This document shows, piece by piece, positions 50,335-53,494 of a DNA stretch of 54,081 nucleotides; position 1 is the first letter of the stretch, and every line of letters starts with the position of its first letter. A program made the translations under genes and the position numbers. The DNA is from Methanocorpusculum parvum. Its GTDB lineage: Archaea > Halobacteriota > Methanomicrobia > Methanomicrobiales > Methanocorpusculaceae. The DNA lies in contig SUTD01000007.1 of NCBI GenBank assembly GCA_015063085.1, positions 1 to 54,081 of the forward strand, read 5' to 3'. A model generated the notes under the pieces. The model searched no databases. It was not told the DNA's origin and saw only the letters and a program-made list of their open reading frames with translations.

Positions 50335-50934
50335 TTACTTTCGAAGTGCCGCAAACATCTTCTCGGCTGCGGCAAGCTCCTCGCGGGTATTCACATTAAA
50401 CGCTAATCCCGGTTCGTGCAGAAGGACAGCTTCTTCCTCCTGAACTTCGGAGACAAAAGCCCCGGTTAAAATGTTCAGTGCACACGGTGTTGCTGCAACT
50501 CCGCCGATAACTTCACGGTAGCGGGGGAGCATTCCGTACTCTTCGCAAAGAGAGATTGGAATCCAGGTGGAACATGCCGGCTTTCCGGAGGTCAGGTGCG
50601 CCTCCCGGACAGAGTGAATAATCTCTGCGGTAAGGCAGGGAATATCTGCTGCTGCCGTAAACAGCGGCCCTTCTTCGCCTGACATCATTACTGCCTCGCA
50701 CATGTCCTCCACATATCCGACACCCTCGGTATCAATACATTCGATGTCGTTTGCCCGGCAGAAGTTCCGGGTAAACGGTGTCTTGTGCGAAGTCACCACG
50801 ACCGGCTCCACTCCTGCTTCACTGAATGCATCAATCACCCAGGAAAGCATTGGGCGGTTTGCAACCGTTACGAGTGCTTTTTCCCCGAGCCGGAGCCGTG
50901 AGCCTTCGCCCCCTGCCAGAATCAGTGCAAGCAT
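50335..50934 (-). CDS. cobY: Adenosylcobinamide-phosphate guanylyltransferase (CobY type)
   Basis: 199 residues with the MobA-like nucleotidyltransferase start LALILAGGEGSRLRLGEKAL and the metal-site aspartate in FTAAADIPCLTAEII. Archaeal CobY attaches GMP to adenosylcobinamide phosphate in cobamide synthesis. The assignment over MobA or another transferase rests on the overlapping upstream cobD, which belongs to the same pathway; the two frames overlap by 13 bases. Confidence 0.8.
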   Translation of the reverse strand: MLALILAGGEGSRLRLGEKALVTVANRPMLSWVIDAFSEAGVEPVVVTSHKTPFTRNFCRANDIECIDTEGVGYVEDMCEAVMMSGEEGPLFTAAADIPCLTAEIIHSVREAHLTSGKPACSTWIPISLCEEYGMLPRYREVIGGVAATPCALNILTGAFVSEVQEEEAVLLHEPGLAFNVNTREELAAAEKMFAALRK

Positions 50935-51911
50935 TCGGCAAGTGCCTCCAGCACACGACAGTTCTTCTCTCTTGTCTCAACCGATACCCGGATGCACTCC
51001 GGAAGCTCAAACGATGTGCAGTCGCGAACAGACACTCCCTTCTCCAGCATTGCAGCGCAGACTGTCTCTGCCGGACGGTTCAGCTGTATCGTAATGAAGT
51101 TCACCTGCGATGGGTAGCAGGAAAGCCCGAGTTTTCCAAGCTCTTCGATATACCAGTTCCGCTCAGCAGTAATCTTCGCTGCAGACTCTTTGAGCTCTTC
51201 GTAATGGTCGAGTGCTGCCATCGCATACTGTTCTGCAAATGCATTTACTGTCCACGGGGTTCTTGCTGTCTCGATTTTCTCAATCAGCTCAGCATCGCCG
51301 AAGCCAAATCCGAACCGGATGCCGGGCACTGTGAAGCATTTCGTAATTGAACGCATCACAAAGAGGTTTTCTGATCTGATGTCTGCGATTGACTCATCCT
51401 TTTCTGCAAGCTCCATGAATGCCTCATCCACAAAGAGCATGGATGAATTATCCTCTGCTTCCTTTAAGCGATTTACCATCTCAGCGCGCGGAGTAAGAAT
51501 GCCGGTCGGGTTGTTTGGATTGCAGATAAACCGGATATCGGCCGGCGCATGCTGTACAACCGTTTTTCCGGCAAGTCTGGCTGATAAGCCGTACTCGCCG
51601 AATGTCGGCATATCAATTCTGCATGTTTTGCCGTCTGTTACTTTGCAGAATACGCGGATAATCTCCGCAGAGCCGTTTCCAACGCAGATTTCCTCAACGT
51701 CTCTGCGGAACACCGAAGCGATTTTTTCCTTGAGCTCGGTGTAGGAATCATCCGGATATACGGCTAAATCCTCATGATTATACGCGCAGGGAAACTCTGG
51801 GACAAACGGGTTCATACTCGCGCTTACATCTAACAGCGCATCGCCGAAACGTCTGCGCATCTCCTGGATTTTCCCTCCGTGAACGGCCTTTTTGGGGAAT
51901 TCTGACGGCAT
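50922..51911 (-). CDS. cobD: Threonine-phosphate decarboxylase CobD (histidinol-phosphate aminotransferase fold)
   Basis: 329 residues, a fold-type I PLP enzyme: HGGKIQEMRRRFGDALLDVS, FICNPNNPTGIL, the PLP lysine in RSITKCFTVPGIRFGFG and a C-terminal IRVSVETREKN. CobD decarboxylates L-threonine phosphate to aminopropanol phosphate for the cobamide tail. The short HisC-like form and the coupling to cobY support CobD over HisC, though the two are hard to separate by eye. Confidence 0.82.
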   Translation of the reverse strand: MPSEFPKKAVHGGKIQEMRRRFGDALLDVSASMNPFVPEFPCAYNHEDLAVYPDDSYTELKEKIASVFRRDVEEICVGNGSAEIIRVFCKVTDGKTCRIDMPTFGEYGLSARLAGKTVVQHAPADIRFICNPNNPTGILTPRAEMVNRLKEAEDNSSMLFVDEAFMELAEKDESIADIRSENLFVMRSITKCFTVPGIRFGFGFGDAELIEKIETARTPWTVNAFAEQYAMAALDHYEELKESAAKITAERNWYIEELGKLGLSCYPSQVNFITIQLNRPAETVCAAMLEKGVSVRDCTSFELPECIRVSVETREKNCRVLEALAECLH

Positions 51912-52010: not shown

Positions 52011-52020
52011 CTTTATAATA
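52011..52020 (+). promoter_or_regulatory. TATA box of the cdrS-ftsZ operon
   Basis: ctttataata predicts transcription from about 52040 and thus an 85-nt leader containing the GTCAG array. Confidence 0.55.
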
Positions 52021-52055
52021 TCAGAAGTACAATTATGTTTTGTCCAAAACAGGAT

Positions 52056-52115
52056 GTCAGTCAAACGTCAGATGTGTGTCAGACAAATGTCAGACAAATG
52101 ACTGACGCATGTCAG
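52056..52115 (+). promoter_or_regulatory. 11-bp-periodic GTCAG array upstream of cdrS-ftsZ
   Basis: GTCAG starts at 52056, 52067, 52078, 52089 and 52111, with exact steps of 11, 11, 11 and 22; the missing phase (52100) holds the degenerate gactg and overlaps an inverted CTGAC. The unit gtcagacaaat is tandem-exact from 52078 to 52099. One unit per helical turn on one DNA face is the pattern bound by arrays of ribbon-helix-helix dimers, such as the regulator encoded next. Confidence 0.75.
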
Positions 52116-52127
52116 ATTGGAGTTATT

Positions 52128-52319
52128 ATGGACCGAATTACAATCCGCTTACCCCCGCAGCAGGTAGAAATGCTTGAGAGACTGGTAGAAATTGGTGAGT
52201 TCCCCTCAGTTTCTGAAGCAGTACGGTATGCTGTGCGCGATTTTCTTTCTCAGAAGAGTGACCGGATTATACGGGACAGTGATTCAATCTCTACCTTTGA
52301 CATGGGAATCAACTGTTAA
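52128..52319 (+). CDS. cdrS: CdrS-like ribbon-helix-helix regulator
   Basis: 63 residues from ATG 52128, with ggag 5-6 bases upstream. The structure is one DNA-contacting strand (DRITIRLPP, 2-10), helix A (QQVEMLERLVEIG), the FPSVSEAVRYAVRDFL helix B, and a short tail (SDSISTFDMGINC). This is the size and pattern of euryarchaeal CdrS, the regulator that precedes ftsZ2 in Haloferax. It lies 17 bp before ftsZ in the same transcript and probably controls the operon through the GTCAG array. Confidence 0.8.
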   Translation: MDRITIRLPPQQVEMLERLVEIGEFPSVSEAVRYAVRDFLSQKSDRIIRDSDSISTFDMGINC

Positions 52320-52336: not shown

Positions 52337-53494
52337 ATGCAGAGTATTATTAACGAAGCACTGAAAAACGCAGAACTCGAGAAAGGAATGCAGACTACCT
52401 CCATCGTCGACGATGAGGACATGCTCGGACAGCCGAGAATTGTCATCGTCGGATGCGGTGGTGCTGGAAACAACACTATCAACCGTCTCCACAACATGAA
52501 GGTCGGCGGTGCTGAGACTATCGCAATCAACACCGACAAGCAGCACCTTGACATGATTCAGGCAGACAAGCGCGTTTTAATCGGAAAATCCTTAACCCGC
52601 GGTCTTGGTGCAGGAGGATTCCCGGATGTCGGACGCCGTGCAGCAGAGATGGCACGCCCGACCTTAGAAGAGCTCTTAAAGGACGCTGACCTTGTCTTCG
52701 TCACTGCTGGTATGGGCGGCGGAACCGGTACCGGATCTGCACCGGTTGTTGCACAGATTGCAAAGGAGCACGGAGCAATTGTTATCGCAATGGTTTCCTA
52801 TCCGTTCCAGGTTGAGCGTGCAAGAATGCTCAAAGCAGAAGACGGTCTTGAGGCAATGCGCCAGGCAGCAGACTCTGTTATCGTTCTCGACAACAACAGA
52901 CTCAAGAACTTTGTTCCAAACCTCCCGCTCGGTCAGGCATTCTCTGTCATGGATCAGATTATCTCTGAGACCGTTAAAGGAATTTCCGAGACCATCACTG
53001 AGCCGTCCTTAATCAACATCGACTACGCAGATGTCCGTGCCATCATGAGCAAGGGCGGTCTTGCAGTCATGCTCATTGGAGAGTCCAAGCAGCAGAACAA
53101 GGCAGAGTCTGTCATCCGTGACTGTCTCGCACACCCGCTCCTCGACATCGACTTCAGAGGTGCAACCGGAGGTCTTATCCACATCACCGGAGGAAACGAC
53201 TTAACTCTGCACGATGCAGAAGAGATTGCCCAGCAGCTCACCTATGAGCTCGACCCGCACGCAGATGTCATCTGGGGCGCGCGCGTTAGAAAGGACTTCG
53301 AAGGAAAAGTCTCTGTCATGGCAATCATGACCGGTATCCACAGCCCTCAGATTATTGGCGGAAGCTCTGAGCCGAGAGTTATCGGAAGATCTCAGCCGCA
53401 GGTTCACCAGTCCTACACCGCTCCAACACCAACCTCTCACGCAAATCCGGAACCGATCCGCACCAGCGGCGGTAACTTTGACTGGATTATCTAA
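52337..53494 (+). CDS. ftsZ: Cell division protein FtsZ
   Basis: 385 residues. A polar N-terminal extension is followed by the GTPase core [16 protein letters not shown] (35-50), the tubulin signature GGGTGTGS (127-134), the [14 protein letters not shown]-type switch region and the T7-loop [12 protein letters not shown] flexible tail ends NFDWII, a terminal pattern like that of archaeal FtsZ2. It polymerises into the division ring. With CdrS directly upstream, this is most likely the FtsZ2 class. A series of hairpins follows the gene. Confidence 0.94.

Follow-up and report, generated by a model that had tools for sequence, protein, structure and literature searches.

The leader of the cdrS-ftsZ2 operon in Methanocorpusculum parvum carries six consecutive 11-bp units that most likely form a tandem operator for the cooperative autorepression of the operon by the ribbon-helix-helix (RHH) protein CdrS, a reading in which we infer the binder, its cooperativity and the repression from comparative sequence analysis. 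It is favored because the grid of units is conserved among relatives and because the same pair of units precedes ftsZ1 in haloarchaea, at a site mapped for CdrS in Haloferax. The window, that is, the whole stretch of DNA analyzed, comprises 54,081 nucleotides.

The array lies in a 216-bp intergenic region flanked by a divergent aminotransferase gene (50922-51911, minus strand) and cdrS (52128-52319), and occupies the leader from the TATA-box side to the Shine-Dalgarno sequence. A sequence-only reading of this DNA had listed GTCAG at 52056, 52067, 52078, 52089 and 52111, at multiples of 11 bp, between a TATA box at 52011-52020 and the regulator start. These five positions and their single phase modulo 11 were correct when rechecked on the window sequence, and the TATA box itself was backed by conservation in 13 aligned sequences, but the array has six units rather than five and its unit is TGTC-N-GACA rather than GTCAG. 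The 11-bp unit is the pseudo-palindrome TGTCNGACA, and the six copies (52054-52119, 66 bp) have all their centers on one grid, including an inverted copy at 52098 that was absent from the earlier list. In archaea, transcription generally starts some 25 bp past the TATA box, which gives the predicted start region below. The features of the leader and of the two genes are as follows.

52011..52020, plus strand: TATA box of the cdrS-ftsZ2 promoter (tttataatat), with T/A columns invariant in 13 aligned sequences.
52036..52042, plus strand: predicted transcription start region, placed by this distance of about 25 bp from the TATA box.
52041..52045, plus strand: TGTCC adjoining the predicted start site, lying off the 11-bp grid and unchanged in all 13 aligned sequences.
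52054..52064, plus strand: unit 1, ATGTCAGTCAA; in relatives GTC is perfect in 59/73 and GAC in 54/73.
52065..52075, plus strand: unit 2, ACGTCAGATGT; weak in relatives (GTC 23/82, GAC 8/82).
52076..52086, plus strand: unit 3, GTGTCAGACAA; in relatives GTC 76/85, GAC 70/85.
52087..52097, plus strand: unit 4, ATGTCAGACAA; in relatives GTC 28/87, GAC 63/87; co-varies with unit 5.
52098..52108, plus strand: unit 5, ATGACTGACGC, in inverted form; in relatives GTC 25/87, GAC 35/87.
52109..52119, plus strand: unit 6, ATGTCAGATTG, abutting the Shine-Dalgarno sequence; in relatives, where it is defined as the last good site, a choice that bears on the first figure, GTC 87/87 and GAC 26/87.
52119..52122, plus strand: Shine-Dalgarno sequence GGAG, similar in 13 aligned sequences.
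52128..52319, plus strand: cdrS, encoding a 63-aa RHH protein (ATG at 52128; Pfam RHH_1, PF01402).
52337..53494, plus strand: ftsZ2 (ATG at 52337; Pfam Tubulin and FtsZ_C).

The perfect units of the window are 3 and 4, which differs from the order of strong and weak units in relatives. Among the 13 aligned sequences the six heptamers were free of gaps, while the preceding spacer, from TGTCC to unit 1, varied in length.

Dinucleotide shuffling of the 216-bp region (5000 shuffles) never produced four or more same-phase copies of any one pentamer, at any period of 8 to 14 within 67 bp, against five observed; three copies were reached in 126/5000. GTCAG by itself was not rare in the whole window (131 occurrences against 110.9 expected, with 5/100 shuffles as high), so that the signal is the phasing. 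A chance repeat was ruled out by shuffles of this region and of the relatives' upstream sequences. A coding extension, through the TTG frame that crosses the window array, was likewise rejected, as an in-frame stop codon interrupts the last 90 nt ahead of the ATG in 82/97 non-haloarchaeal upstreams.

The genes behind the array were assigned to the cdrS-ftsZ2 pair, cdrS sitting directly upstream of ftsZ2 in the window. CdrS matched RHH_1 with 28.5 bits (cut-off 20.5), and a profile of the window protein retrieved haloarchaeal CdrS encoded beside an FtsZ frame. The window FtsZ clustered with cdrS-linked haloarchaeal FtsZ (FtsZ2) with a support of 100/100, on a branch with 11 cdrS-linked FtsZ (four methanogen, seven haloarchaeal) on one side and for which the tool warned of long branches. 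A frame with FtsZ motifs lay downstream of cdrS in 39/39 genomes of families f2-f6 and in 20/20 from the wider phylum. The strand that makes DNA contacts in RHH proteins, here presumed to be R3-x-T5-x-R7, was present in 12/12 aligned methanogen and 8/8 haloarchaeal CdrS. Among proteins of solved structure, those closest in sequence were two CopG/Arc/MetJ-type antidote proteins, uninformative on the site. By eye, an aminotransferase-like frame, the counterpart of the divergent window gene, was kept divergent from cdrS in four further loci (L301, L302, L183 and L188).

The phasing extended to relatives of the window. A CdrS match was found in 213/232 genomes of the class, and 47 CdrS relatives, taken from one genome per species, came from Methanocorpusculum, Methanocalculus, Methanoculleus and their kin. 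The upstream set comprised the window, these 47, 39 of 40 genomes of families f2-f6 (L096, in which the gene pattern found no cdrS, was left out) and 20 from the wider phylum, 107 rows in all, of which 99 are non-haloarchaeal and a few of family f3 duplicate earlier ones. When sites with at least 5/6 bases of GTC-N-GAC were paired at distances of 8-99 bp, 683/796 pairs in the 99 non-haloarchaeal upstreams were exact multiples of 11 bp, whereas shuffled upstreams gave a mean of 9 pairs with 0.6 on the grid. At least three sites on one grid were present in 95/99 upstreams against 0/1980 shuffled sequences; the other four (L043, L086, L087 and L094) had two on-grid sites only. Conservation of array and spacing upstream of cdrS, which had been named as the check on the sequence-only reading, is thus strongly borne out. 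Near-duplicates contributed little, with 82 distinct 66-bp arrays among 86 Methanomicrobiales rows.

From first to last good site, exactly six units were counted in 71/87 Methanomicrobiales rows and three to seven in the others; the number is nearly constant, and the earlier proposal that FtsZ dosage is set by copy number is speculation. By eye, eight to nine same-phase units were seen in groups f7 and f24 and about five in f28. The center base of the 166 perfect units (among 503 in Methanomicrobiales) was A in 86, T in 69, G in 9 and C in 2, and the linkers between units were 83% A+T. This two-fold symmetry around a free center base is what would be expected of a site for a dimer on double-stranded DNA. 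With the search made solely in the stretch upstream of the array, a TATA-like hexamer was found before it in 83/85 rows (two had no match), the distance from TATA start to first site being 39-45 bp in 69/85 rows with a mode of 41 (33 rows). The last good heptamer ended 10-16 bp before the ATG in 76/87 rows.

The link to CdrS comes from haloarchaea. ChIP-seq in Haloferax volcanii placed CdrS at 18 sites and yielded a symmetric motif; one of the sites is at -50 of ftsZ1 (PMC8406309). Because that report gives the motif only as a figure, we examined ftsZ1 upstreams from seven haloarchaeal genomes, chosen by FtsZ_C family and regardless of motif. Within about 250 bp before ftsZ1, GTCNGAC-N4-GTCNGAC was found in 7/7 genomes at 10 or more of 12 bases, exactly in four (L197, L198, L200 and L203), and it is the same unit with the same spacing as in the methanogen cdrS array. 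The pair lay 48-51 bp before the start region in 6/7 genomes and at 106 bp in the seventh (L199), and in 6/7 directly preceded a GGGGAAA-type, A+T-rich box. From this position in haloarchaeal genomes other than Haloferax itself, we infer that the ChIP motif is GTCNGAC-N4-GTCNGAC. Upstream of dacZ, another Haloferax ChIP target, a site of at least 10/12 was found in 3/16 haloarchaeal genomes, a weak result for which some starts were unsure. Haloarchaeal codon use favors GTC and GAC, which makes a reversed pattern a poor control there, and spacing was therefore used as well: in 14 haloarchaeal genomes the exact pair occurred 50 times with an N4 gap (reversed control 2) and 17 times with N5. Four exact 11-bp-spaced pairs were also seen in haloarchaea (L219, L231, L246 and L248) upstream of three bactofilin-domain genes and one volactin gene, and CdrS-type sites may join several cytoskeletal genes in these organisms.

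The haloarchaeal cdrS promoters themselves carried a different site, GTAAGAC-N4-GTCTTAC, in place of the GTCNGAC pair, exactly once and at cdrS in 8/10 genomes and absent in two. Only 13/92 site pairs in haloarchaeal cdrS leaders (in eight leaders) were on the 11-bp grid, the long-range phasing being lost. By eye, several leaders (among L156-L163) also had single GTAAGAC or GTCTTAC heptamers, off the grid, both upstream of the TATA box and near the ribosome-binding site. Just upstream of haloarchaeal cdrS, 7/7 loci encoded CdrL, an RHH protein with zinc ribbons whose first strand reads K-I-T-F-R (K-x-T-x-R in 7/7) against R-x-T-x-R in CdrS. The one reproducible CdrL site reported from ChIP in Halobacterium lies upstream of cdrS-ftsZ2 (PMC7439475), and CdrL presumably binds GTAAGAC-N4-GTCTTAC itself. 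By extension, the methanogen array might chiefly bind some other DNA-binding protein, as CdrL does at the haloarchaeal promoter. We consider this very unlikely: CdrL is reported from Halobacteria only (PMC7439475), the methanogen unit agrees with the site before haloarchaeal ftsZ1 rather than with the CdrL-type site, and the regulator gene directly behind the array is cdrS in the leaders examined.

That the element might instead act in the RNA leader, with units forming a hairpin before the Shine-Dalgarno sequence or binding an RNA-binding protein, is quite improbable; it was retained as a lesser alternative on account of the covariation between units 4 and 5. Their complementarity, the strongest of 15 unit pairs tested with up to 5 shifts, was 6.94 against 6.45 of 11 upon family-wise permutation (0/300), a permutation that leaves relatedness in place; unit pairs 1-5 and 1-4 also stood out (0 and 1 of 300 permutations, respectively). 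One units-4/5 position was Watson-Crick paired in 62/82 leaders against 36 expected, stems of at least 7 occurred at the unit 4/5 junction in 15/82 against 0-4/82 at other junctions, and RNA z-scores ranged from -1.5 to -8.3 in 17 leaders. The Halobacterium cdrS-ftsZ2 operon is, in addition, described as probably under post-transcriptional control (PMC8303175). Self-complementary units, however, yield hairpins by construction. A period of 11 bp would also be superfluous for an element acting in RNA, and haloarchaeal ftsZ1 has the same pair of units ahead of its TATA-like box. An RNA fold was rejected as the main explanation, since leader folds differed from species to species and covariation within the genus was weak (RNAalifold covariation term -0.46, two-sided change in 3/18 pairs). 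The units-4/5 covariation, which runs partly by family, could reflect an RNA hairpin or a symmetric dimer-of-dimers site. Very long inverted repeats were seen by eye at units 4/5 (equivalent to 52087-52108 of the window) in some species, for example in L016, L089 and L090.

The putative tandem operator appears to have few counterparts elsewhere in methanogen genomes. GTCAG-N6-GTCAG occurred at two places in the window's genome beyond the three in the array, the reversed control also giving two, and no pair with zero or one mismatch was found outside the cdrS array in this assembly, which is about 80% complete; the regulon that the sequence-only reading expected from other arrays in the genome was thus not found. 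In a scan of 18 methanogen genomes that allowed up to one mismatch, 66 pairs were counted against 108 for the reversed-pattern control, and a genome-wide regulon in methanogens was rejected for want of an overall excess. In the two genomes that belong to the same genus as the window, nine pairs were counted against none in the control; four of them lay in the cdrS array, and of the other five the one examined (L294) lay within a reading frame. Exact pairs were present in 57/231 genomes of the class; among 20 stretches around such matches, four were cdrS again (L174, L181, L183 and L188), two lay at a conserved small gene (L170 and L171) and at least six fell inside long reading frames (L169, L177, L178, L180, L185 and L187). 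On the counts from the 18 genomes and from the window's genome, methanogen CdrS may be close to a dedicated autoregulator.

A paired CdrS-type site was nevertheless seen upstream of a conserved 106-aa gene (EIYQAQVIRNFFDTITGTDRNLTRIYMC...) in L170 and L171 (family f5, exact) and in L293 (family f6, one mismatch), before the TATA box by eye; the gene has no convincing Pfam family and is the best candidate for a second target in methanogens. Genome G207 (L295 and L296) had three GGCAGAC-N4-GTCTGAC sites, two of them some 4 kb away from cdrS, and those seen shortly precede CTTTATA boxes, a possible lineage-specific regulon. Three genomes of genus g32 (L172, L173 and L182) share an exact pair close to the same two genes.

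In the mechanism that we propose for the array, one CdrS dimer would occupy each 11-bp unit on the two-fold pseudo-palindrome GTC-N-GAC. With a spacing close to one turn of the helix, neighboring dimers would line up along a single face of the DNA and bind cooperatively, with better units seeding weaker ones. The filled complex would reach from about 12-18 bp past the predicted start as far as the ribosome-binding site, blocking initiation or early elongation of cdrS-ftsZ2, and the resulting steep negative feedback would hold CdrS and FtsZ2 constant. The position of the array between TATA box and start codon, from which alone its effect was judged, is consistent with repression, archaeal factors sited downstream of the TATA box being described as usually repressive (PMC8406309). 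Upstream of a TATA box, as at the two-unit site of haloarchaeal ftsZ1, CdrS could activate instead.

CdrS is described as an activator in haloarchaea (PMC8406309, PMC7439475), and the array might accordingly bind it as a positive or mixed autoregulator, or serve as a titrating sink, instead of binding it as a simple repressor. In Halobacterium, ftsZ2 is not activated when cdrS is missing (PMC7439475), and in Haloferax 15/18 CdrS sites map 41-110 nt before a start site, a placement read by those authors as activation (PMC8406309); a multi-unit array could also titrate CdrS dimers. The methanogen array, by contrast, follows a TATA-like hexamer in nearly every row examined (83/85, as above), the usual place of repression (PMC8406309), and a role other than simple repression is in our view rather unlikely. 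The sequence-only reading had further taken it as known that CdrS controls cdrS-ftsZ2 in Haloferax, which the two papers do not show: cdrS is not among the 18 sites in Table 1 of the ChIP-seq report (PMC8406309), and in Halobacterium the protein mapped at the cdrS-ftsZ2 promoter is CdrL (PMC7439475).

These results bear on how archaea set the level of FtsZ, the CdrS experiments considered here being haloarchaeal. If correct, the proposal supplies a precise operator present in a methanogen order and outside it, and a recognition unit common to methanogens and haloarchaea. It would also suggest a possible evolutionary switch between self-control through a CdrS array in methanogens and control by CdrL through a changed half-site in haloarchaea, where CdrS would have been freed for several promoters.

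Tandem operators of RHH proteins are a known kind, to which the array would belong on sequence grounds; for CdrS it appears new within the open-access literature searched, in which no report of such an array was found. In MetJ, CopG and the omega repressor, RHH dimers bind side by side on short sites, although those operators have other repeat lengths and sequences than the methanogen array. RHH proteins recur in archaeal cell-cycle control, as in aCcr1 and SegB (PMC12284271, PMC7617429). The closest system is haloarchaeal CdrS of Haloferax volcanii and Halobacterium salinarum (PMC8406309, PMC7439475), which shares the orthologous RHH protein, the same cdrS-ftsZ2 operon and, before ftsZ1, the 11-bp-spaced GTCNGAC pair; haloarchaea, however, have mostly pairs before several genes, whereas methanogens have a six-unit array behind the TATA box of the cdrS promoter itself. 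The CdrL-type site of Halobacteria resembles the array in lying downstream of the cdrS-ftsZ2 TATA box and in its two heptamers 11 bp apart, but differs in having TAC for GAC, another RHH protein and no long-range 11-bp phasing.

The order of iterated sites, small DNA-binding adaptor and tubulin-like filament gene also resembles plasmid segregation cassettes. By this analogy, the array and CdrS might form a chromosomal parC- or tubC-like scaffold in which at least six dimers on one DNA face would offer their tails to FtsZ2 or some other partner, linking the chromosome or replication state to the division ring; we regard this as a long shot. Of the parC-type traits, the cdrS-ftsZ2 locus has the tandem 11-bp repeats and an RHH gene, the product of which is their putative binder. 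In the actin-type partition locus of plasmid R1, ParR-parC likewise joins an RHH protein with direct repeats of 11 bp around the promoter and with a filament-forming NTPase encoded in the operon, and ParR represses that promoter, as is only proposed for the CdrS array. Unlike parC, the methanogen array is chromosomal, its partner FtsZ2 is tubulin-like, and its units are palindromic, with inverted copies tolerated.
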